This document shows, piece after piece, positions 7,331 to 32,313 of a stretch of 34,866 bases of DNA (position 1 is the stretch's first letter; every line of letters begins with the position of its first letter). The position numbers were made by a program, and so were the translations under genes. The stretch spans positions 1 to 34,866 of the forward strand of contig JABWBD010000131.1 in NCBI GenBank assembly GCA_013360685.1, in the 5' to 3' direction. Source of the DNA: Pirellulales bacterium (GTDB lineage: Bacteria; Planctomycetota; Planctomycetia; Pirellulales; Thermoguttaceae). The notes beneath the pieces were generated by a model that had not been told where the DNA came from, ran no database searches, and saw nothing but the letters and a program-made list of their open reading frames with translations.

Positions 7331-8170
7331 ATGAAGCCTCGACGGAAACTTTCAGCCGCCGCCGTTCAATCTCCGCTGGAGACCTACCTCCGCGAGATCA
7401 ACGAAACTCCGCTCCTGTCGTCCGGCGATGAGCAGGATCTCGCTGTTGCCATCGGCGAAGGCGACATCCAAGCCCGCGACCGCATGGTCCGCGCCAACCT
7501 CCGCCTGGTCGTGAACATCGCGCGCGGCTACACCGGCAAAGGCCTCGGTCTGCAGGACTTGATCGAAGAGGGGAACCTGGGGTTGTTGCGCGCGGTCGAG
7601 GGCTTCGACCCGGCGATGGGCACCCGCTTCTCCACCTACGCCAGCTACTGGATCAAGCAGTCGATCAAGCGTGCCCTGATCAACTCGGCGAAGACGATCC
7701 GGATCCCTGCCTACATGGTCGAGTTGCTCTCCAAGTGGCGACGCGCCAGCAGCCGGCTCACCGAAGAACTCGGACGCACGCCGACGCCCGAGGAGGTCGC
7801 TCGCGTCCTCGGGCTGCCTCGCAAGAAACTGCCGATTATCAAGAAGGCGATCAAGATCTACAATCTCACCCCGCAGACCGATCAAGCCGACAGCGGCTGG
7901 TCGCTTGGTGAGATGGTGATGGACGAGCGAGCGAAGAACCCCGAGGAAGAACTCGTCGATCACGACAACCTCCGACACGTCCTCGAGCAGCTCCAATGCA
8001 TGGACCAGCGCGAAGCCACGGTCCTCAAGATGCGATTCGGCCTGGAGGACAACGAGCCTCGCACCCTCAAGGAAATCGGCGAAAGCCTTGGGCTTACGCG
8101 CGAGCGCGTCCGGCAAATCGAGACGGAAGCTCTCAACAAGCTCGGCGACAGCCTCAACGGATTGCCGTGA
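7331..8170 (+). CDS. sigma-70 family RNA polymerase sigma factor (RpoD/RpoS-like, group 2)
   Basis: The 279-residue protein has sigma region 1.2 (PLETYLREINETPLLSS, about residues 15-31), regions 2.1-2.4 (DLIEEGNLGLLRAVEGFDP and TRFSTYASYWIKQSIKRAL, about 77-120), region 3 (about 135-200) and region 4.2 (TLKEIGESLGLTRERVRQI, about 246-264), which forms the -35-binding helix-turn-helix. It lacks the long acidic region 1.1 of the housekeeping factor, and its length fits an alternative primary-like (group 2) sigma factor. It would direct RNA polymerase to promoters close to the ordinary -35/-10 consensus. It stands alone between the rpsA terminator and apt, with a 127-base gap upstream that holds no promoter I can defend. 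Confidence 0.93.
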   Translation: MKPRRKLSAAAVQSPLETYLREINETPLLSSGDEQDLAVAIGEGDIQARDRMVRANLRLVVNIARGYTGKGLGLQDLIEEGNLGLLRAVEGFDPAMGTRFSTYASYWIKQSIKRALINSAKTIRIPAYMVELLSKWRRASSRLTEELGRTPTPEEVARVLGLPRKKLPIIKKAIKIYNLTPQTDQADSGWSLGEMVMDERAKNPEEELVDHDNLRHVLEQLQCMDQREATVLKMRFGLEDNEPRTLKEIGESLGLTRERVRQIETEALNKLGDSLNGLP

Positions 8171-8257
8171 CTTCCTCTTCCCGCTGGTTCCCTTCCGCTC
8201 TATACTCGATGCCTGACAGAACTACAGCCTTCCTGCGATCAAGAGGAGCGGGTTGCG

Positions 8258-8791
8258 ATGTCCCAGTTCGCAGAACTGAACCTGATGGACTATATCCGCG
8301 AGATCCCCGACTTCCCGAAACCGGGCATCCTGTTTCGCGACATTACCCCCCTTTTGGCGTGCCCTGAAGCGTTCCGGTTGGCCGTGCGGCAGATGGCCGA
8401 GCGGATTGGGGACCGCAAGGTGGACGTAGTCGCGGCTGCGGAAGCGCGAGGATTTCTCTTCGCCTCGCCTTTGGCCCTTGAACTTCGAGCGGCGCTGGTG
8501 CCGATTCGTAAGGCCGGCAAACTGCCTTACAAAACCCTTTCGCACACCTACCAGCTCGAATACGGCACCGATACCCTTCAGATCCATGTCGACGCCATTC
8601 CTCCAGGCTCCAACGTCTTGGTCGTCGACGATCTCCTGGCCACCGGGGGTACCGTCGAGGCATGTTGCCGCCTGGTCGAGAAGGCCGGCGGCGCCGTGGT
8701 CGGCTGCGCGTTTCTGATCGAGCTGGCGGTGTTGGAAGGGGCCAAGCGGATCGACGGCCATGAAGTTGTCAGTCTGATCCGATACGAGTGA
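8258..8791 (+). CDS. apt: adenine phosphoribosyltransferase
   Basis: The 177-residue product has the expected length for this purine salvage enzyme, which makes AMP from adenine and PRPP in the cytoplasm. The N-terminus reads YIREIPDFPKPGILFRDITPLL, the hallmark of Apt. The PRPP-binding loop VLVVDDLLATGGT contains the acidic pair D124-D125. The flexible-loop segment RKAGKLPYKT is also present. GAGGAG at 8243-8248 is a good ribosome-binding site nine bases before the ATG. TATACT at 8201-8206 could be a -10 element, but the matching -35 is poor. Confidence 0.96.
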   Translation: MSQFAELNLMDYIREIPDFPKPGILFRDITPLLACPEAFRLAVRQMAERIGDRKVDVVAAAEARGFLFASPLALELRAALVPIRKAGKLPYKTLSHTYQLEYGTDTLQIHVDAIPPGSNVLVVDDLLATGGTVEACCRLVEKAGGAVVGCAFLIELAVLEGAKRIDGHEVVSLIRYE

Positions 8792-9405: not shown

Positions 9406-10854
9406 ATGGCTGTGCAGTGGTTCTATCAGATCGCAGGCGAGACGCTCGGGCCAGTTTCGCCGGAGCAACTCAAGTCCCTTGTACGGACCGGCAAGCTATC
9501 GATCGACGATTTCGTACGGGAGGGTGACGCCGCGTGGATTCCGGCCAGTCGCGTGCCAGGACTCTTTTCAAGCCCGAGCAAGCTGCGCCGGCAGCCGGAA
9601 GCCGGACTTCAGCCCAGCGCCGGACCCGAAGCCCCGCCGATCGTGGCCCCGCCCGTCGCGCATTCGACGCTCATCCAGTCTGGCCCTCGCGCGCCCGCCC
9701 CGCCTGTTGCAAGCGTCGCCACATTGCCGCCGCCTGTCGCAGCCGCCCCCCCGGCCATCGGCAGCGGGCCTCCGCCACTTCCCTCGGCCAACGCACCTCT
9801 GGCCACAAGTGGGCGAGGTGCCGGCGGCAATGCGCGGTTGGTGTTCTTGCTCATTGCCTTGGTAATGGTACTGGCCGCCGGCGCGATTGCCGTCGTCGTC
9901 CGGCCGGCGCCTCCCAGCGGCGCCGGTCCGTCCGCTTCGGCAAAGCCGATTCCAGATCCGAGGCCTGAGGAACCCGCGCCTTTGAAGAGTCTCGACGAAC
10001 TGGCCGAGGCCCTTGCCCCATCGGCGACGGAATCTGCCGGGAACGCCGAATGGGTGGACGCAATGGCAGAACCGGCACGTCGGGGCGATATCATCGTGCG
10101 GATCTTGTCTGCCGAGGTGGGACGGCCCACGTTGACCATGTTCAACGGCAGTGCCGCGCGTCCCAGAGGCGAGTACTTAGTTCTCAAGGTCCAAATTCAG
10201 AACGAGAACGGGACGAGCGCTCGCCAGTACACCGGCTTTGCAAACAGTCCGGCGCGGGAAGCCGTCAAGCTTTTCGATGACTCCGGCACGTCGTACTCCC
10301 AGAAAACCTGGAAAGCTGCAACCATCGAAGGGCAGCTTGCCAAAGAGCCGCTCCGAGCCGGCAAACCGATTGCCGACGTGCTGGTCTTTCAGAAACCTAG
10401 TAAAGAGGTCACGATGCTGCGGCTGAGCCTTCCGGCGGCGGCCTTCGGAGAGAAAGGCACGCTCGGCTTCGCGATTCCGACGACCATGCTCGTGGCGGGC
10501 GCCGTCGACCAATCCCCGCAAGGTCCCCAGGTTCGCGCAAGCGACGATTCCGCATCACCGTCGCCCGGCCGCGGAGTGCCGGAGATCGAGCAAGGCATCG
10601 CTGAAATGGGCCCGGAGAGGCAGAAAGAAGAAGATCCCGAGAACATCGTCGAGATGGTGGACAGGGCGACCGAGGCACTAGGGGCCGGCGACAAGCAACA
10701 CGAGGCCACCGACAAGGACTTCGAGGAGATCCTGCGAAACCGGAAAGACTTGGAGCCCAGACGCCGAGACGGTGGGGCGCGGGAGCACCGTCCTCCTTCG
10801 CAACGGGAACCGGAAAGGACCAGACAACCAGACCAACAGGCGGACTCCCCGTGA
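9406..10854 (+). CDS. GYF_2-domain single-pass membrane protein
   Basis: The 482-residue protein has three visible parts. Residues 1-55 (WFYQIAGETLGPVSPEQLKSL, then GDAAWIPASRVPGLF) are a GYF_2 domain, a small fold common in planctomycete membrane proteins and thought to bind proline-rich peptides. Residues about 56-140 are a Pro/Ala-rich linker. Residues about 145-166 (LVFLLIALVMVLAAGAIAVVV) are one transmembrane helix. The remaining 310 residues lie on the other side and include a compact segment (about 220-365) resembling beta-sandwich ligand domains of the DUF4352 type, then a charged, probably disordered tail. The function is unknown. The stop codon overlaps the GTG start of the epimerase gene by four bases (GTGA), so the two are translationally coupled. 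Confidence 0.8.
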   Translation: MAVQWFYQIAGETLGPVSPEQLKSLVRTGKLSIDDFVREGDAAWIPASRVPGLFSSPSKLRRQPEAGLQPSAGPEAPPIVAPPVAHSTLIQSGPRAPAPPVASVATLPPPVAAAPPAIGSGPPPLPSANAPLATSGRGAGGNARLVFLLIALVMVLAAGAIAVVVRPAPPSGAGPSASAKPIPDPRPEEPAPLKSLDELAEALAPSATESAGNAEWVDAMAEPARRGDIIVRILSAEVGRPTLTMFNGSAARPRGEYLVLKVQIQNENGTSARQYTGFANSPAREAVKLFDDSGTSYSQKTWKAATIEGQLAKEPLRAGKPIADVLVFQKPSKEVTMLRLSLPAAAFGEKGTLGFAIPTTMLVAGAVDQSPQGPQVRASDDSASPSPGRGVPEIEQGIAEMGPERQKEEDPENIVEMVDRATEALGAGDKQHEATDKDFEEILRNRKDLEPRRRDGGAREHRPPSQREPERTRQPDQQADSP

Positions 10855-11849
10855 AAGCTCTGGTGACCGGCGCGAACGGATTCTTGGGTCTCTACCTGGT
10901 TGAAATGCTCGTCGCGCGCGGTGACCGGGTGAGGACGTTCTGCCGACGACCGTCGCCCGAACTCGATCGGCTAGGCGTGGAAACCGTGCTGGGCGACATT
11001 CGTGAGAAGGAGGCCGTTGCCTCGGCGTGCCGAGGGGCTGAGGTCGTCTACCACGCGGCCGCCGCGGCAGGGATCGGCGGCCGCTGGCAGGACTACTATG
11101 AAACCAATGTGGTCGGGACCGAGAACGTCGTGGAAGGTTGCTCCGCCGGCGGCGTCGGCCGACTGGTTTATACCAGCAGTCCCAGTGTGACGTTCAATGG
11201 TGTCGATCAGAAGGGAGTGGATGAGTCCACATCGTACGCCCAGCGATGGCTCGCCCCGTATCCGCGGAGCAAAGCGATCGCCGAGCAGCACGTTCTGGCC
11301 GCGAACGGAAGAGACGGGCTGTGGACCTGCGCGCTGCGGCCGCACCTGATCTTCGGACCTCGCGATCGGCACCTCATCCCGCGGCTGCTCGCCCGTGCAA
11401 GGACCGGCAGACTCCGGCGCATCGGCGACGGTTCGAACCTGATCGACATTGTTTACGTGGAAAACGCCGCGCATGCCCATCTGTTGGCGGCCGACACTCT
11501 TGGGCCCGGTTCCCCGGCAGCCGGGCGGGCGTATTTTATTTCCCAGGGCGAACCGGTCAACTGCTGGGAGTGGGTCGACCAGATCCTGGCGCTGGCCCAC
11601 TTGCCGCCCGTGGGCCCGTCGATCTCGCCTGCGGCGGCTTGGTGGCTGGGCGCGGCATTGGAGACAGTGTATCGTCTTTTCCGGATTCCCGGCGATCCTC
11701 CCATGACCCGCTTTCTTGCCGCCCAGCTAACGACCAGTCATTATTTCGACATCCGTGGCGCCCGTCAGGATTTGGGCTACGAGCCGCGGATATCGACCGC
11801 CGACGGGATGCAGAGGCTTGCCTCGGAACTCTCGCTTTCGTCATTTTGA
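10851..11849 (+). CDS. NAD-dependent epimerase/dehydratase (extended SDR family)
   Basis: The 332-residue protein begins at GTG 10851 with MKALVTGANGFLG, the Rossmann-fold dinucleotide loop G7xxG10xxG13. The catalytic pair Y137 and K141 is seen in PYPRSKAIAE, with a serine-rich strand (YTSSPSVTFNG) about 25 residues earlier. RPHLIFGPRD is the substrate-side signature. This class acts on nucleotide sugars, sterols or related carbonyls in the cytoplasm; the overall sequence is close to the 3-beta-hydroxysteroid dehydrogenase/isomerase branch, but substrate cannot be read from the sequence. Position after a coupled membrane protein and 12 bases before a glycan-related secreted protein may hint at sugar metabolism. 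Confidence 0.88.
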   Translation: MKALVTGANGFLGLYLVEMLVARGDRVRTFCRRPSPELDRLGVETVLGDIREKEAVASACRGAEVVYHAAAAAGIGGRWQDYYETNVVGTENVVEGCSAGGVGRLVYTSSPSVTFNGVDQKGVDESTSYAQRWLAPYPRSKAIAEQHVLAANGRDGLWTCALRPHLIFGPRDRHLIPRLLARARTGRLRRIGDGSNLIDIVYVENAAHAHLLAADTLGPGSPAAGRAYFISQGEPVNCWEWVDQILALAHLPPVGPSISPAAAWWLGAALETVYRLFRIPGDPPMTRFLAAQLTTSHYFDIRGARQDLGYEPRISTADGMQRLASELSLSSF

Positions 11850-18871: not shown

Positions 18872-20353
18872 TCAAGGTTTCAGGTCCAAGGCGGCCTCTT
18901 TGACGATCTCGTCAATCGCGGCTTCTTGTTCGGTGTTCAAGGGCGGGTCACTTTCCGCCGCGAGCAACTCGCGGGCCCTTGCGGCGGCGCGTCTTTCAAA
19001 ACGCTCCCGATCCAGGCTGTCGGCCGCGCCCCAAGAAAGACATTCGAAAAACGGCGAGAGCAGCTCTTCGCTGCGATAGTGTCGGGCTGTGTGGTCGTGG
19101 TCGTAGGCGCGGCCGTTGATGCCCATCTGCTCGATGACCTCTAGCGCGAGCGTCTCGTCGTTGACCTCGATGCCCCGGACGGCACGGCGCACGTAGCGAG
19201 CAATCTCATTGTCGATGACCAGTTGGAGCGGCGAGAACGTAACGGCATTCTCCAAATGCCCGACGGTGCCGAAGCCGATGGCGCCCGCCATCACCGCGGA
19301 ATACATCGAGATCGCCTTCTCGACTCCAACCTGGGTCCCGGCCACACATGCATCAGTCTTGCCGCCGTGAATGCCCGAGGGGCAGCCGTAATACTCGGAC
19401 ACCATTTGCACGCGCGCCGCGAGCAATGCGGCGCGCTCCGCGCCCGCATAACGGAAATGCATCGAGCGCATGTCGCAGTACCCCGGCGTCAGATCCAAAG
19501 TCATCGTGGCGCATGGATCCACCGCAAATCCCAGCACCAGGCCCCCCAGCGTTTCGGCCACGCCGAGCGACAGCATGGCCGCGGCAGTGATCGGCGCCGT
19601 CGCGCCGCCGTTGGGCATGGTGTCGAGACTCTGGGGCAGACCGAGTTCAAGATGGGCCAGCATCACGTCGGCCATCACGGCGTCGATGCACAGCGGTGTG
19701 CGCGCTTCGGCATAGCCGACCAGGATCGGGTCGCGCCGATGCGCTTCGCGACCGCCGGCCACGATCTCCCCGATCCGCGCAATGTAGCCGACATGCTCGC
19801 GGCGGAATGTCTCGATTCCGCCGAGTTTCCGCGTAGCTTTGACCAGTTCCGCCGCCATCACGACAGGCCGGACGTGCACGGGCACCTCCTGCGCAGCGCA
19901 CGGCAGTCCGGTATAGGCGATCTGATCGAGCCGGTCGGCCAGCTTCAGCGACTGCCGGACATCCTCGAGCGTGGCTTGCCGCCGCCGCCCGTCGAGGTCG
20001 CAGATGAAGACGCAGAACCCACCGGCGCTGACGGTAAAATCATCGTGGACGCGAAATGGTTGGGATTCCAGTCGCACTTGCGAATACCGGACCGACATCC
20101 GCAGGGGTCGCCGTCCCGGGGTCTGAAAGTTTTGCCGCATCCGGCTTACGGCGGCTTCGACCACTTCGGGCGGGAACTTCACGGTCCGCCGATCCATGTC
20201 CACCCGGCAACCGGCCGCCCGCAAGTATTCCAACGCTTCCAGGTGATCCACCCACATTCCCGTCCGTTCGAGAATCCGCAGCGCGGACCGATGAATCGTG
20301 TCCATCTCGTCGCGGCCCAGATACCGGATTGGTTCCATGGAGGATGTCTTCAT
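18872..20353 (-). CDS. trimethylamine methyltransferase (MttB) family protein, non-pyrrolysine
   Basis: The 493-residue protein matches MttB length. Recognisable segments include the N-terminal RILERTGMWVDHLEALEYL, the middle LPQSLDTMPNGGATAPITAA and the C-terminal AISMYSAVMAGAIGFGTVGHLENA. True MttB carries pyrrolysine at an in-frame amber codon. Here the frame is uninterrupted, so it belongs to the larger non-pyrrolysine branch, whose studied members (for example MtgB) move a methyl group from glycine betaine or related quaternary amines to a corrinoid protein. The substrate here is unknown. No corrinoid protein gene is nearby, but a DUF1638/hydantoinase fusion lies 6 kb away. The start ATG overlaps the stop of an MFS remnant by four bases, so it was once translated behind a transporter. 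Confidence 0.88.
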   Translation of the reverse strand: MKTSSMEPIRYLGRDEMDTIHRSALRILERTGMWVDHLEALEYLRAAGCRVDMDRRTVKFPPEVVEAAVSRMRQNFQTPGRRPLRMSVRYSQVRLESQPFRVHDDFTVSAGGFCVFICDLDGRRRQATLEDVRQSLKLADRLDQIAYTGLPCAAQEVPVHVRPVVMAAELVKATRKLGGIETFRREHVGYIARIGEIVAGGREAHRRDPILVGYAEARTPLCIDAVMADVMLAHLELGLPQSLDTMPNGGATAPITAAAMLSLGVAETLGGLVLGFAVDPCATMTLDLTPGYCDMRSMHFRYAGAERAALLAARVQMVSEYYGCPSGIHGGKTDACVAGTQVGVEKAISMYSAVMAGAIGFGTVGHLENAVTFSPLQLVIDNEIARYVRRAVRGIEVNDETLALEVIEQMGINGRAYDHDHTARHYRSEELLSPFFECLSWGAADSLDRERFERRAAARARELLAAESDPPLNTEQEAAIDEIVKEAALDLKP

Positions 20354-26201: not shown

Positions 26202-29072
26202 TCATGCCTTGCTTCCGGCAGTCCTGCCGTCCAGGCTCGAATTGGGCCCGCGACTGTCCGCAACGAGCTCACTTTTCAACCGCGCCACGTCCGGCCGGCC
26301 CGAGAGATGGGCTGAGAGCGTACGGCCAATGAAGACCGGGCTTTGCATGGCCGTCGGAGCGACGCGGTCGTGGACGCGGATCTCGACGCGGGATGCGCTC
26401 GTGCCCGCCTCGCGGGCTGCGTGCCGGACGAGCCGGGTGAGTTCCTCCAGGGCGAATCGGTTCGCTTCGTGGAAATCGGCAAACCACCTGGCCTCCGGCA
26501 AGCCCGCGATCGCGTACCGGCCGTTGTCGCCCGGCGAAATCTCCACGTGGTGCCGGACCGACACTCGGCTGGTGATGGCGCCGATGGCGTTGGCCACGTC
26601 AGCGTGTGGCGGGATGATTGCCTCGGTTTCCAGCAGTTTCGCCGCGGCGGGCAGAAACAGGTGAACCGGCGCGCCGATGCCGACCAACGCGTGCTTCAGT
26701 TCGACGCGGATCCGGAAATCGTCCGTTCCGCCGTCAAGCCAGTTGTTCACCAGCGAGTCGGCTGCCGGCGAACGGTCCCCATCGCGAGCTTCGCCATGCT
26801 CGGCGAGCTGCATTTTGAGAAGTTCGGCGGCGAGCCGCCGGGTGATCTGGTCGTGGATCCATTGCGAAAACGCCTCCCGCGACATGCCCATGAGCCGGCA
26901 GAACATGGCGCAGATCCGCTCGGCTGCGCGGGTGTTCCAGAGGGAAATCCGGCCGGCGGCATGGAGCACGTCCGTCGGCGTGAGCCCGCACCGCTGGACG
27001 GCGTGCCGGAGCTCCAGCCGGTCCAAATCGAGAAACTCCCATCGACGTGCCTGGGTCCGTTCCGCCAACTCGTGAAGACTGTGGGGCCGCTCGGACAGCA
27101 GTTCCAGGATCCGCAATTCGTGTGGCGCGTAGCCGTCGTGTCGCGCGTGGCCGTTCAGGGCGAGCAGTTCCATCGGTCGCGTCGAGCCGCGGTAGCGGTC
27201 GAGGCGGTCTTCCAGCCAGTCCAGCGCGGCCAGTCCGCGATCTTCCCGGCAGAGCCATGCGACGGGAGCGACCCGCTGTGGACCGATCTCCACTTCGCCT
27301 CTTTCCAGGGTGATGAGACTGTCGCCGCCCAATCCGAGCGTCCGCATGTCGAGCGCGCGGACGTGCGTTCGCCAGCCGCCGACCGTCGCGCCCTTTTCGG
27401 ACGTGGCGACGCGTCCGCCGCGGATCGTTGCCGTGTCGGTCGTGGTGCCGCCCATGTCGACGACCACGGCGTCGGGCAGCCCGGCCAGGTAGCTCGCCCC
27501 GGCCACGCTCGCGGCCGGGCCGGAGAGGATCGTTTCGATCGGCCGCCGGCGGGCCACGGGGAGGCTCATCAGCGAACCGTCGCTCTTGACCACCATCTGC
27601 GGAGCGCCGATGCCGCGGCGGCGGAGCGAAACCTCGACGTCGTTGAGAAACGAGTCGAGGCAGGGGATGATGCTGGCATTCAGGGCCGCCGTGACCGCGC
27701 GGACCCGGTAGTTCAGCCCTTCGGAAACTTCGTGCCCGCAGGTGACATGGAGCCCCGTCGCCTCGCGGAGGATTGCCTGGGCGGCCAATTCGTGGGCCGG
27801 ATTGGCGTGGCTGGCGTAGCCGGTCACGGCAAAGGCCCCGACCTGGTGCTGCCGCAGCATCTCGGCCGCCGCTGCGCGGATCTGCGCCGGATCGATCGGT
27901 ACAAGCTCGCGGCCGTCGATCTCCAGCTTGCCCTGGAGCACAGCGATCGGCCGGTAGGCAATATGCGACGGGTGCCACAGCCCATAGGGCGGGAAGACCA
28001 TCATTCCCACTTTCTGGCCGCGGCCCTCGACGATGGCATTCGTGGCGAGCGTGGTGGAGATGGTTACCAGATCGACCTGCGCGAGCTTTTCAGGATCGAG
28101 GCGATCGAGGGCCTCTTCGATGCCGATGGTGAAGTCCCACTTCGTGGTCGGGGCTTTGGCTTTCAGCAAGACCCGGTCCGCCGAGAAATCGTAGAGGACC
28201 ACGTCGGTGTATGTGCCGCCCGCGTCGATCCCCAATCCCAGCCGAACCGGCCGCCGGTCTTCCGGCTCTTCGCGAGCGTCGTCGAACACGAGCGTATGGT
28301 CGCGGCCCTCGGCGGCGTCTTCGGCTTCCCAGACGGGCACGGCCTTGAGCGTCTTGGAAACCGCGTCGTATGCCGTCACGTGGTGGGGCGGGACGAGGAG
28401 GATCTCGTCGGTCGACTGGTGCGCGGCCAGCAGCCTCTCCATCAACTCGCTGGATCCTGGGATCTCCTCGTATTTCCACCCCAATGCCTTGGCCATGGCC
28501 TGGGCGATCTCCGCATAGCGGCTCTTGCCCCTGGCGCCGGTGTCGATGAATGCCGCGCGCTGGTAGTTCCTCTGCCAGCTCGTGAGAAACCGTCGAATCG
28601 CTTCGGCATTTTCCTCGCCATAGGCGGCAACGAGTTGCGCGAACGTGTAGCAGTCGGGCCCGCAGTGGGTCTTCCCCTCGGGCGACTGCGGCTGGGCTTT
28701 CCCCTCGACCCAGCCGGCCGAGATGTAGTAGGTGCCGGGATAGCGGACGAATTGCTCGCGGTAGGCTCGGTCGGACCCGAGGAACATGGCGATGCAATCG
28801 TTCACGCGAGGGATGACCAGCGGGACGTTGCGGGCATGGATCCCCACGCTTCCCAGGCCGCAGACCCCGTATCCGACAACGATCCGCTCGCCGCGGAATA
28901 CGGCCGACGCCTGGTCGATCGCCTCCTGCAAACGGCGCCGCAGTTCGTGCGGTCGGTCGTGGAGCCCGCCCGGCAGGAAATCGGTCGTGAGCCGAAGGCC
29001 AAGCCGGCGAGCGATGTCCTCGAGATCGATGGCCAACACTCCGCAGGCAATCACGTGAATCGAATCAGTCAT
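26202..29072 (-). CDS. DUF1638-hydantoinase/oxoprolinase (HyuA) fusion protein
   Basis: The 956-residue protein joins two families. Residues about 1-245 match DUF1638 (IHVIACGVLAIDLEDIARRL, VGYGVCGLGSVGIHARN, CGPDCYTFAQL), with cysteines C72, C137 and C141 that could bind a metal or cofactor. From about residue 278 the sequence is a hydantoinase A/oxoprolinase ASKHA-type ATPase: GLGIDAGGTYTD (281-290) is the phosphate-1 loop and VVDMGGTTTDTATIRGG the second. HyuA proteins hydrolyse cyclic amides with ATP; DUF1638 proteins are often found near corrinoid methyltransferases. A role in activating or servicing a corrinoid system is inferred, helped by the MttB homologue in the window. The catalytic B subunit (HyuB) is not adjacent. 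It is transcribed away from the sulfatase pair. Confidence 0.85.
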   Translation of the reverse strand: MTDSIHVIACGVLAIDLEDIARRLGLRLTTDFLPGGLHDRPHELRRRLQEAIDQASAVFRGERIVVGYGVCGLGSVGIHARNVPLVIPRVNDCIAMFLGSDRAYREQFVRYPGTYYISAGWVEGKAQPQSPEGKTHCGPDCYTFAQLVAAYGEENAEAIRRFLTSWQRNYQRAAFIDTGARGKSRYAEIAQAMAKALGWKYEEIPGSSELMERLLAAHQSTDEILLVPPHHVTAYDAVSKTLKAVPVWEAEDAAEGRDHTLVFDDAREEPEDRRPVRLGLGIDAGGTYTDVVLYDFSADRVLLKAKAPTTKWDFTIGIEEALDRLDPEKLAQVDLVTISTTLATNAIVEGRGQKVGMMVFPPYGLWHPSHIAYRPIAVLQGKLEIDGRELVPIDPAQIRAAAAEMLRQHQVGAFAVTGYASHANPAHELAAQAILREATGLHVTCGHEVSEGLNYRVRAVTAALNASIIPCLDSFLNDVEVSLRRRGIGAPQMVVKSDGSLMSLPVARRRPIETILSGPAASVAGASYLAGLPDAVVVDMGGTTTDTATIRGGRVATSEKGATVGGWRTHVRALDMRTLGLGGDSLITLERGEVEIGPQRVAPVAWLCREDRGLAALDWLEDRLDRYRGSTRPMELLALNGHARHDGYAPHELRILELLSERPHSLHELAERTQARRWEFLDLDRLELRHAVQRCGLTPTDVLHAAGRISLWNTRAAERICAMFCRLMGMSREAFSQWIHDQITRRLAAELLKMQLAEHGEARDGDRSPAADSLVNNWLDGGTDDFRIRVELKHALVGIGAPVHLFLPAAAKLLETEAIIPPHADVANAIGAITSRVSVRHHVEISPGDNGRYAIAGLPEARWFADFHEANRFALEELTRLVRHAAREAGTSASRVEIRVHDRVAPTAMQSPVFIGRTLSAHLSGRPDVARLKSELVADSRGPNSSLDGRTAGSKA

Positions 29073-29140
29073 GTCGCGGGGAACAGGTTGGGCAAGCGAA
29101 GCGGGCTTGCGTGGCGCGTCTGCCAGAGCACGTGCCCTGG

Positions 29141-29169
29141 TTTCAACGGAATTCTTTACGGATTATAAT
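29141..29169 (+). promoter_or_regulatory. promoter of the sulfatase pair
   Basis: A perfect -10 hexamer TATAAT lies at 29164-29169, with a poor -35 (TTTCAA, 29141-29146) 17 bases upstream. The first sulfatase start codon is 29 bases further on. Confidence 0.45.
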
Positions 29170-29197
29170 ACGGCCGACCCAGCACAAGGAGTTGCCC

Positions 29198-30850
29198 ATG
29201 AACCAACCCTTCGCCGCAATCCTCCTCGGTCTGCTGCTGCCGACCGTGGTTTCCGCCGCCCGAGCCGCGGAGGTTGATCGGAGGCCAAACGTCATCTTCT
29301 TGCTCACCGACGACCAGGGATGGGGCGACGCCGCCGCGTGGGGCCATCCTTACTGCAAGACACCCCACCTCGACCGGCTGACGGCGGAAGGCCGGCGGTT
29401 CGGGCAGTTCTACGTAGCCAATCCGGTGTGCTCGCCCAGCCGCACGGCGTTTATGACGGGGCGCTACCCGGCGCGGTTCCGCATCCACGGGCACTTCGCC
29501 ACGCACGAATTGAACCAGGCCCGCGCCATGCCCGATTGGCTCGATCCCCAGGTACTGACGGTGACCCGCCAATTGCAGGCCGCCGGCTACGTCACGGGGC
29601 ATTTCGGCAAGTGGCACCTGGGAGGCGGCGAGGGCGCACCGGAGCCGGGCAGCTACGGCATCGACAGCCACGTCACGATCGTGTCCAACGGCCCGCAGTT
29701 GCGCGAGAAAGACGCGCCGCCCGAGCCGCACTGGTGGGGCAAGTCCACCGGCATCATCATGGACCACGCGATTGCCTTTCTCCGCCGGAACAAGGACAAG
29801 CCGTTCTATCTCAACATCTGGACGCTCGTGCCGCACGCCAAGCTCGATCCAACACCCGAGCAGCTCGCCGTGTATCAAGACCTCGATCCGCGAGCCGACC
29901 ATCCGGCGTTCGGCCAGTGGACCCGGGACTACTACACGGCGGCCAAGGACTTCCGCTCGCAGATGCAAGTCTACGCCGCGTCGATCACCGATCTGGACAC
30001 GCAAGTCGGCCGGCTGCTCGATACGCTCAAGGAACTCGGCCTGGAAGAGCATACCGTTTTGATTCTCAGCAGCGACAATGGGCCGGAGGACTACCATATC
30101 GGCAACGCGACGAACGCGGGCGTCGGTTCGCCCGGCCCGCACCGCGGCCGGAAGCGCAGCATTTACGAGGGCGGCGTGCGCCAACCCTTTGTGGTGCGTT
30201 GGCCCCGCAAGATCCGTGGCGGCGTGTTCGACGAGACGTCCGTCGTCGGCGCCGTGGATTTCCTGCCGACACTTTGCGCTTTGACGGGCGTGAAATTGCC
30301 TCCGGACGCGGAGCTGGACGGCGAGGACGTGAGCGATATCCTGCTCGGCGGCCAGACGCGGCCGCGGAAGAAGCCGCTGTTCTGGGAATGGCGCTCGACG
30401 ATTGCCGGCAATCCCGAGTTCACTCCGCCGCCGATCGCTGTGCGCGACGGCCCTTGGAAGCTGTTGACCAACCGCGACCGCAGCCGGGTAGAACTCTACA
30501 ACGTCCCCGACGATCCGGCGGAGACCAACAGTCTGGCCGCCGCCAACCCCGAAGTGGTGGAACGTCTCGCCAGGCTGGCACTCCAGTGGAAGGCGACGTT
30601 GCCGCCCGGCGAGGAGCAGCCGCTTCCGCGTGCCAAGGCAAAGGCACAGGGCAAGCCCGCGCCCGACCGGGCCGCGATGTTTGAAACCAAAGACGGCGAT
30701 CGCAACGGAAAACTCACGCTGGAGGAATATCTCCGCAATTTCCCCGATCAGGCCGAAGGCCGGCGGCGATTCCCCACGTTCGACGCGAATGGGGACGGCG
30801 TGTTGAGCCGAGAGGAATTCATCACGATGGGAGGAAAACTCAAGCCATGA
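29198..30850 (+). CDS. secreted sulfatase with C-terminal EF-hands
   Basis: The 550-residue protein starts at ATG 29198, six bases after AAGGAG, with a signal peptide (AAILLGLLLPTVVSAARA). The alkaline-phosphatase-like fold begins with RPNVIFLLTDDQGWGD, whose Asp pair binds calcium. C78 in VCSPSRTAFMTGRYP is the residue converted to formylglycine, C-x-P-S-R type, so a formylglycine-generating enzyme or an anaerobic maturase is needed. FGKWHLGG and ILSSDNGPED complete the active site. The last 45 residues contain two EF-hand loops (DGDRNGKLTLEEY and DANGDGVLSREEF), an addition common in planctomycete proteins. It cleaves sulfate esters; the natural substrate is unknown. Its stop overlaps the next sulfatase start by four bases (ATGA). 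Confidence 0.95.
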   Translation: MNQPFAAILLGLLLPTVVSAARAAEVDRRPNVIFLLTDDQGWGDAAAWGHPYCKTPHLDRLTAEGRRFGQFYVANPVCSPSRTAFMTGRYPARFRIHGHFATHELNQARAMPDWLDPQVLTVTRQLQAAGYVTGHFGKWHLGGGEGAPEPGSYGIDSHVTIVSNGPQLREKDAPPEPHWWGKSTGIIMDHAIAFLRRNKDKPFYLNIWTLVPHAKLDPTPEQLAVYQDLDPRADHPAFGQWTRDYYTAAKDFRSQMQVYAASITDLDTQVGRLLDTLKELGLEEHTVLILSSDNGPEDYHIGNATNAGVGSPGPHRGRKRSIYEGGVRQPFVVRWPRKIRGGVFDETSVVGAVDFLPTLCALTGVKLPPDAELDGEDVSDILLGGQTRPRKKPLFWEWRSTIAGNPEFTPPPIAVRDGPWKLLTNRDRSRVELYNVPDDPAETNSLAAANPEVVERLARLALQWKATLPPGEEQPLPRAKAKAQGKPAPDRAAMFETKDGDRNGKLTLEEYLRNFPDQAEGRRRFPTFDANGDGVLSREEFITMGGKLKP

Positions 30851-32313
30851 ACCTGCCATGCCCATTTCGTTCACTGCTGCTTCTCTGGTTCGGCGCCACG
30901 GCCGTGACCGCCCTTGCCAGCGGGGCAGCACCCGATCGCGAACGTCCCAACATCCTCTTCCTCCTCTCCGACGACCACAGCTACCCGTATCTGGGCTGCT
31001 ACGGAAACCCGGACGTGCGGACGCCGAACCTCGACCGGCTGGCGGCCGAGGGGATGCGGTTCGATCGGATGTTCGTCGGCTGCCCGCAGTGCGTCCCGTC
31101 GCGGGCGACGCTCATGACCGGTCGCTCGGCCGTGGCGGTCCGCATGGTGCGGTTCACTTCGCCGTTGCCGGCGGACTTGGCCGCGCTGCCGGACCTGCTG
31201 CGCGACAAAGGCGGCTACTTCACCGGGGTAGGCGGCCGCAGCTACCACTTGGACGGCCCGCCGACCAAGGGCAAGGGCATCGGCGTTGCGCCGGTCATGG
31301 GCGAGATCATGGACCGCCACGGTTTGCGGACTTTCGCCAACCGGGTGGACTACGTCGAGAAGGGCGGCGGCATGAAGGATTTCGGCGGCAAGCTCGCCGC
31401 GTTCCTCGACGCGACCCCGAAAGACAAGCCGTGGTTTTTCTGGCTTGGCTTCAGCGACCCGCACCACGTGTGGGAGACGAAAGGCCCTCGCGGCTTGTCG
31501 GATCCGGCGAAACTGACGCTGCCGCCGCATTTTCCGGACCTGCCCGGCGTGCGCGGCGACCTGGCGCGCTACCTTGCCGAGGTTGAGCACCTCGACGGCG
31601 ACGTGCAAGACGTTCTCGACATGCTCAAGTCGCGGGGCTTTGCGGAAAACACGCTGGTGGTCTTCATGGGCGACAACGGCATGGCCATGCCGCACGGCAA
31701 GGGTTCGCTTTTCGACCCGGGCATCGCCGTGCCTCTCTTGGTCCGTTGGCCCGGCGTGGTGAAGCCCGGCGGGACCACGATGCAGCTTATCTCCGGGGAG
31801 GACTTCGCTCCCACCATGCTGGAAGCCGCCGGACTTACTCCGCCCAAGGAAATGAGCGGCGTAAGTTTCCTCAAATTGCTCCGCGGCGAACCTTTCACCG
31901 GTCGGAAGTACATCTTCGCCGAGCGCGGGCCCCACGGCGGCGACGGCGGCATGAAGCCGGACATCCTAGCGTCGACGTTTGATCTGGCCCGCTGTGTCCG
32001 GTCCGACGGTTTCAAGCTCATCTACAACTGCACGCCGCACCAGGCCGTCGCTCCGGTCGACAGCCAGCGCGATCCCGGCTGGCAGGAGATCCGGGCCGCT
32101 GGTGCAGCCGGCACGCTTGCCGAACCGTTCGTGAAGGCCTACTTCACGGTCCCGCGGTCGACGTTTGAACTCTACGACCTGACTGCCGATCCCGGCGAAT
32201 TGCACAACCTGTCCGGCGACCCGAACTACAAGGACATCGAGTGGGAACTCAAGCGGGCACTCACCGAGAAAATGGTGCTCGAATGGGATTTTCTCCCGAC
32301 GCCGCTGCGGTAA
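30847..32313 (+). CDS. secreted sulfatase, N-sulfoglucosamine sulfohydrolase-like
   Basis: The 488-residue product begins with a short signal peptide (LLLLWFGATAVTALASGAA) and then RPNILFLLSDDHSYPYLGCYG, the calcium-binding start of the sulfatase fold. C82 in CVPSRATLMTGRS is the formylglycine site (C-x-P-S-R). GDNGMAMPHGKGSLFDPG is the second metal-binding segment, and FELYDLTADPGELHNLSGD is the usual C-terminal block. Overall it is closest in layout to heparan N-sulfatase or SGSH-like proteins, but this is by memory of motifs and not a search. It is translationally coupled to the upstream sulfatase, so the two probably act on the same sulfated glycan. Confidence 0.94.
   Translation: MNLPCPFRSLLLLWFGATAVTALASGAAPDRERPNILFLLSDDHSYPYLGCYGNPDVRTPNLDRLAAEGMRFDRMFVGCPQCVPSRATLMTGRSAVAVRMVRFTSPLPADLAALPDLLRDKGGYFTGVGGRSYHLDGPPTKGKGIGVAPVMGEIMDRHGLRTFANRVDYVEKGGGMKDFGGKLAAFLDATPKDKPWFFWLGFSDPHHVWETKGPRGLSDPAKLTLPPHFPDLPGVRGDLARYLAEVEHLDGDVQDVLDMLKSRGFAENTLVVFMGDNGMAMPHGKGSLFDPGIAVPLLVRWPGVVKPGGTTMQLISGEDFAPTMLEAAGLTPPKEMSGVSFLKLLRGEPFTGRKYIFAERGPHGGDGGMKPDILASTFDLARCVRSDGFKLIYNCTPHQAVAPVDSQRDPGWQEIRAAGAAGTLAEPFVKAYFTVPRSTFELYDLTADPGELHNLSGDPNYKDIEWELKRALTEKMVLEWDFLPTPLR

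Follow-up and report, generated by a model that had tools for sequence, protein, structure and literature searches.

A DUF1638–HyuA-type ATPase fusion as a probable accessory factor for corrinoid methyltransferases

We analysed a stretch of 34,866 nucleotides from a Pirellulales bacterium (Planctomycetota; contig JABWBD010000131.1; the whole stretch is hereafter called the window). A gene on its minus strand (positions 26202–29072) encodes a single chain of 956 residues in which a DUF1638 domain is joined to a HyuA-type ASKHA ATPase. Judging from its sequence and genomic associations, this fusion probably assists corrinoid (vitamin B12) methyltransferases as an ATP-dependent accessory factor that acts beside RACo. 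We infer that the DUF1638 half contacts a corrinoid protein, which is probably in the inactive Co(II) state, and acts on it with chemistry at conserved cysteines, and that the ATPase half would bind and hydrolyse ATP and drive a conformational cycle. The fusion would work beside RACo, not in its place, to reactivate or maintain the corrinoid protein, and its clients would be the corrinoid proteins used by MttB-type, UroD-type or methionine-synthase-type methyltransferases. The proposal builds on direct observations of the domain architecture, the conserved residues, the ATP motifs, the co-occurrence with RACo and corrinoid proteins, and the operon membership in relatives.

Domain architecture and conserved residues

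The open reading frame (ORF) starts with ATG, and its G+C content by codon position (0.70/0.48/0.83) follows the usual pattern for this window of 64% G+C; thus, the minus strand is the coding strand of the fusion. A 941-residue ORF that overlies it on the plus strand was rejected on codon G+C content as an antisense artefact. The original prediction, which had proposed one DUF1638–ATPase chain without naming its strand, is borne out by the ORF, by three Pfam matches that are all far better than the curated cut-offs and by homologues with the same architecture. As other Planctomycetota assemblies (41–61% identity) and dozens of named genomes share this architecture, the fusion is not an assembly artefact. 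Isolates that carry it include Desulfosarcina widdelii PP31, Desulforhopalus singaporensis, Desulfocicer vacuolatum and Desulfofustis glycolicus.

The DUF1638 domain comprises residues 1–246 (28335–29072, minus strand). Pfam family PF07796 matches residues 32–215 (E=3e-39) over its whole profile (positions 1–161 of 161), and AlphaFold2 models a fold of approximately residues 1–246, with a mean predicted local distance difference test score of 90 for the domain and 86 for the whole chain; the N-terminal 245 residues had thus been assigned to DUF1638 correctly. The ATPase half contains a Hydant_A_N domain (residues 280–438, 27759–28235, minus strand; PF05378, E=9e-31) with the ATP motif GIDAGGTYTD at 281–290 and a Hydantoinase_A domain (residues 458–600, 27273–27701, minus strand; PF01968, E=1e-36) with a second ATP motif, DMGGTTTD, at 539–546. 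Among 38 homologues, the first motif is invariant except for Y288; in the second, D539, G541, G542, T543, T544 and D546 are invariant and M540 varies. For the C-terminal extension of about 330 residues (601–931; 26280–27272, minus strand) the Pfam scan found no family of its own. It falls inside the HyuA-type fold match and has conserved blocks in all full-length homologues, for instance TPTD at 698–701.

Known relatives of the ATPase half, the HyuA-type subunits (N-methylhydantoinase A, caprolactamase alpha and acetone/acetophenone carboxylase), share its Hydant_A_N and Hydantoinase_A domains and its fold, with matches to acetone carboxylase, acetophenone carboxylase, caprolactamase and N-methylhydantoinase at E values of 1e-24 to 1e-29. 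This match to catalytic subunits by both sequence and fold suggests an alternative in which the HyuA half is a metabolic enzyme for a small molecule of quaternary-amine or one-carbon metabolism, which it phosphorylates or opens at the expense of ATP, as in acetone carboxylase or N-methylhydantoinase. DUF1638 would then be a substrate-binding or second catalytic domain, and the proximity to MttB would result from a shared substrate pathway. We consider this unlikely. In contrast to HyuA-type subunits, the fusion has an N-terminal DUF1638 domain and no hydantoin genes among its scanned neighbours, and its equivalog hidden Markov model scores are far below the cut-off. Furthermore, HyuB had no match in the flanks (up to 10 kb on each side) of any fusion or free-ATPase locus. 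We thus do not file the fusion as a hydantoinase and reject a role in hydantoin metabolism. Homologues confined to HyuB and hydantoin genes would have refuted the original prediction, and this outcome did not occur.

For the DUF1638 model, the search for similar folds in the PDB returned nothing below E=1e-3, and its weak hits (ribose-binding protein, PrpR and glutamate racemase) suggest merely two alpha/beta lobes. Five residues, C10, H38, C71, D92 and C93, occur without exception in 38 fused copies, as do several Gly, Trp and Tyr residues, and the same five are invariant in 19 free DUF1638 proteins. At position 91, the window copy has Asn and all 19 free copies have His. To judge from this conservation, the invariant Cys/His/Asp set looks like a metal, iron-sulfur or cofactor site.

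Co-occurrence with RACo, corrinoid proteins and methyltransferases

We surveyed a sample of 392 Planctomycetota genomes and a set of 62 genomes selected because they have the fusion or the free ATPase, using tests that ignore the relatedness of the genomes, which counts against the proposed role. In the Planctomycetota sample, RACo is present in 46 of 46 genomes with DUF1638 compared to 133 of 392 overall (hypergeometric test, 6e-25); counted by family, the figures are 20 of 20 and 42 of 100 (1e-9). Fourteen of the 46 DUF1638 genes lie less than 6 kb from RACo, where 0.25 would be expected. Within the 62 chosen genomes, DUF1638 was found in 60, RACo in 59, a B12-binding_2 domain in 60 and MttB in 42; sole dependence on MttB was rejected because the other 20 genomes have none. 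Only Methanosarcina acetivorans among 14 control genomes has both DUF1638 and RACo. The reactivation domain of MetH, by contrast, is depleted in the DUF1638 genomes of the Planctomycetota sample, of which 13 of 46 have it compared to about 242 of the 346 others, and at E<1e-6 it was found in none of the seven fused planctomycetes; this depletion favours the accessory role. We rejected the idea that DUF1638 is a plain replacement of this domain, since the depletion is significant but not clean.

The presence of RACo, which already supplies reduction, in nearly all of the chosen genomes would also fit a factor without a redox role that removes damaged cobalamin from corrinoid proteins or loads it into them. 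Diol dehydratase reactivases are a precedent for such cofactor exchange. The ATPase half is weakly similar in sequence to GlmL/MutL and EutJ, which are ASKHA accessories of mutase and ammonia-lyase systems that depend on B12, and has a weak fold match to EutJ. However, ASKHA similarity is common to many unrelated kinases and ATPases and is thus weak evidence, and the presence of three invariant cysteines points to a metal or redox site and away from simple chaperoning. We therefore regard a pure exchange or chaperone factor as rather improbable.

The gene neighbourhoods of relatives link the fusion to the same partners. Compared to expectations from genome copy numbers, MttB was observed 10 times in the flanks of the fusion where 1.16 were expected (about nine times as often; P=4e-7), RACo three times where 0.42 were expected (P=0.009) and a corrinoid protein twice where 0.48 were expected (P=0.08); these P values are optimistic because nine of the 10 MttB cases are from Desulfobacterota, some of them close relatives. 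The clearest case is locus L068, which encodes on one strand a BCCT betaine transporter, the fusion, a sigma-54 regulator, MttB, a corrinoid protein, a pterin-binding methyltransferase and RACo. Locus L110 of D. glycolicus contains MeTr, a corrinoid protein, UroD, a TRAP transporter, RACo and the fusion, and the Desulfotignum and Desulfobacula loci contain MttB, an FAD-dependent oxidase of the DAO family and the fusion. As for the separate halves, the free ATPase half occurs in L118 together with MttB, a corrinoid protein, a second MttB, MeTr and BCCT and adjoins a corrinoid protein in L037; a corrinoid protein, DUF1638 and RACo form a single-strand run in L046. An operon with MttB, a corrinoid protein and methyltransferase II was thus seen in L068, in L110 (with UroD for MttB) and in L118 (with the free ATPase), and not at the window. 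The predicted link of DUF1638 and the ASKHA ATPase to each other and to corrinoid methyltransferases is supported by the constant presence of RACo, the excess of MttB and these full operons. The recurrence beside MttB, corrinoid protein and methyltransferase genes accordingly holds for these relatives and not for the window itself.

The betaine or TRAP transporters and the DAO-family oxidase in some of these operons could also be expected of a metabolic enzyme. The neighbours vary, however, among MttB, UroD and RACo, and their common factor is corrinoid proteins or RACo, which argues against such an enzyme.

Several observations weigh against this accessory role. Outside Desulfobacterota, most fused loci have no methyltransferase gene next to them, and that of the window is one of these. 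Many planctomycetes have DUF1638 without this ATPase, which is thus optional for DUF1638, and 13 of the 46 DUF1638 genomes keep the MetH reactivation domain. DUF1638 has no relative of solved fold in the PDB search. Lastly, no RACo was found in three genomes with the fusion (G400, G406 and G417), and G406 also has no B12-binding_2 match; these assemblies may be incomplete.

The window locus and the history of the fusion

The MttB homologue that the original prediction had placed 6 kb away, as possibly part of an undescribed methyl-transfer system, is a gene for an MttB-family methyltransferase of 493 residues (18872–20353, minus strand; Pfam MTTB, E=8.5e-63), which scores under the TIGR02369 cut-off. 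The distance is correct (5.85 kb, same strand), and the gene is a candidate partner of the fusion. It is not an operon partner, because the two are separated by genes for a GH141 protein and a thioredoxin and by an ORF with a DruA domain, on mixed strands. Furthermore, conserved-neighbour clustering found no MttB near the closest fusion homologues (L032, L033 and L034), and genomes without any MttB, as counted above, speak against such an operon as well. To call this an undescribed system was an overstatement: the parts are known components of corrinoid methyltransferase systems, to which the fusion seems to be a general accessory. Many MttB matches in other genomes (e.g. G395, G397, G402, G415 and G424) contain a single in-frame TAG, as would be expected of MttB with pyrrolysine, and the window MttB has none.

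In this organism, the fusion might instead have drifted away from corrinoid methyltransferases into some other role, with the nearby MttB a coincidence. According to Pfam, the genes that adjoin it encode sulfatases, a GH141 beta-helix protein and thioredoxin, and its close homologues neighbour similarly unrelated genes (an ArsP permease, a phosphoribosyltransferase, phosphatases and a GntR-type regulator). The chance that one of six MttB copies lies within 10 kb in a genome of 8 Mb is about 1.5%, so that the local MttB alone is weak evidence. Yet the DUF1638 residues and the ATP motifs are intact, and the genome retains a corrinoid machinery. Although only 77% complete, it contains two RACo genes, one B12-binding_2 corrinoid protein, six MttB matches and a single DUF1638, which is the fusion; at this completeness, the search for a MetH reactivation domain was negative. 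The gene for the corrinoid protein lies on another contig (C108, locus L127) together with those for MTHFR, a pterin-binding methyltransferase (MeTr) and formate–tetrahydrofolate ligase (FTHFS). One of the RACo genes lies in an apparent operon for carbon monoxide dehydrogenase/acetyl-CoA synthase (contig C450, locus L134), as read by eye. With these two loci, the planctomycete may have a Wood–Ljungdahl-type pathway. We conclude that a drifted role is very unlikely. The expected client proteins of an accessory factor are present in this genome, but they are not linked to the fusion; the likely client would be the only B12-binding_2 corrinoid protein found.

Other features of the window stand apart from these questions. 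The DruA-domain ORF between the MttB gene and the fusion (PF14236, 24827–25555) is shorter than the profile and is perhaps a fragment or a mobile-element remnant. Two tandem sulfatase genes (29111–32313) are divergent from the fusion, and the first has a C-terminal EF-hand match. At 10851–11849, the window encodes a reductase close to OleD, the 2-alkyl-3-oxoalkanoate reductase (E=3e-114, under the equivalog cut-off). In three other fused planctomycetes (L128, L129 and L132), a free corrinoid protein gene stands among sigma factor, apt and rluD-like genes; at 7331–8791 of the window, a sigma factor gene and apt are adjacent, but no corrinoid gene was called there (gene names in both cases by eye).

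Besides the window, the fusion is present in six further genomes of the Planctomycetota sample, in one of which the DUF1638 half has decayed and in another of which a contig end cuts the gene; several genomes have the ATPase half alone. Species genomes of GTDB yielded 80 loci in a further scan. Taken together, 62 non-redundant loci, many of them from metagenome bins and a few of them cut or decayed, start in the DUF1638 half. They come from about 10 phyla, among them Planctomycetota, Desulfobacterota, Spirochaetota, Armatimonadota with Zipacnadia and WS1, Kiritimatiellota and Lentisphaerota, Omnitrophota, Latescibacterota and Abditibacteriota. A tree built from the ATPase half places 56 fused copies, nine free ones and three with decayed DUF1638 in one group (support 99) and leaves most remaining free copies outside. 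The simplest reading of this tree is an old fusion that was followed by repeated splitting or decay. Ten of the 12 genomes of the fusion clade with a free or decayed copy contain a separate DUF1638 gene, whereas the base rate for the Planctomycetota sample is 46 genomes of 392.

Individual loci illustrate the variation. In L036 (9387–12032) and L077 (9707–12421), the fused DUF1638 half has decayed and lost the conserved cysteines, and both genomes contain a separate intact DUF1638 gene. An Acidobacteria bin (L062:9842–12442) has an ATPase gene without most of DUF1638; its N-terminus, CTSCMECDTFCP, has a ferredoxin-like cysteine motif joined to the tail of DUF1638. A genuine swap of domains, a deletion that kept the frame or a join made in the assembly could each explain this. 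A 3308-residue 'mega-fusion' around the homologue in G284 was rejected, since codon G+C content shows most of the frame to be antisense to plus-strand genes. Directly 3′ of the fusion and on the same strand, a 268-residue protein without a Pfam match is encoded in Armatimonadota, Zipacnadia and WS1 (L105:12804–13610, L087, L099, L101 and L103). In four Desulfotignum bins (L056, L058, L059 and L114), the last few bases of the fusion gene also belong to the MFS transporter gene that follows.

Relation to known systems

DUF1638 has been tied to cobalamin-dependent methyl transfer before. In Phaeobacter inhibens, the DUF1638 gene PGA1_c13340 is required for B12-dependent methionine synthesis, and across Alphaproteobacteria it tracks a RamA-like protein; no specific function was proposed for this DUF1638 gene (PMC5764234). 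In Ruegeria pomeroyi, the abundance of DUF1638 (SPO2162) and RamA proteins is higher on N-osmolytes (PMC12478193). Both findings speak for the DUF1638 part of the proposed role. These two proteins resemble the fusion in their Pfam family and in their ties to cobalamin-dependent methyl transfer and a RamA-like protein, whereas they are described without a HyuA ATPase half or a mechanism; we compared them by description and not by sequence. The genetics also speak against a metabolic enzyme, as they lead to methionine synthesis, where no substrate of that kind is known.

RACo/RamA (DUF4445), a reductive activator of corrinoid proteins, shares the ASKHA ATPase fold with the fusion (a weak match to 3zyy, E=8e-4) and occurs in the same genomes and in several operons of relatives. 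However, the Pfam matches of the fusion include none to an N-terminal ferredoxin, RACo_middle or RACo_C_ter domain, and RACo is encoded separately.

In betaine-fermenting Bacillota, a HyuA-type protein named 'HydA' or N-methylhydantoinase A is encoded in a cluster with MttB, a corrinoid protein and methyltransferase II. It is induced together with these partners, and the study left its role unexplained (PMC9768040). This cluster resembles L118 in gene content and layout (a comparison by layout and family name, not by alignment), whereas 'HydA' is free-standing and has no DUF1638. Its strong induction with the glycine betaine cluster would also suit the metabolic enzyme considered above. For the dichloromethane mec cassette, the accessory proteins MecG and MecH were proposed to reactivate the corrinoid cofactor, with the DUF1638 paper among the citations (PMC9768040); as the source text does not say whether either is a DUF1638 or HyuA protein, we take this as a lead only.

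The link between DUF1638 and RamA (2018) and the unexplained 'hydantoinase' in betaine clusters (2022) are thus already published. We found no description of the fusion in the mainly open-access literature, where DUF1638 is mentioned in only three papers; domain databases may already list the architecture. What is new is a domain combination in a probable corrinoid-methyltransferase accessory with a testable function.

More tentatively, the fusion may be a second ATP-driven machine for corrinoid proteins that is distinct from RACo, in which DUF1638, with its cysteines and histidine, would do the cofactor chemistry and a HyuA-type ATPase without HyuB would power it. If this is true, it would be the first function for DUF1638, and the HyuA fold would gain a role other than substrate activation. 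An ATPase fusion kept across about 10 phyla names a working partner for DUF1638, and the question is testable with one purified protein. An answer would also help to account for the genes called hydantoinases in the clusters for glycine betaine and has a bearing on the handling, by anaerobes, of methylated compounds that feed into methane and acetate.

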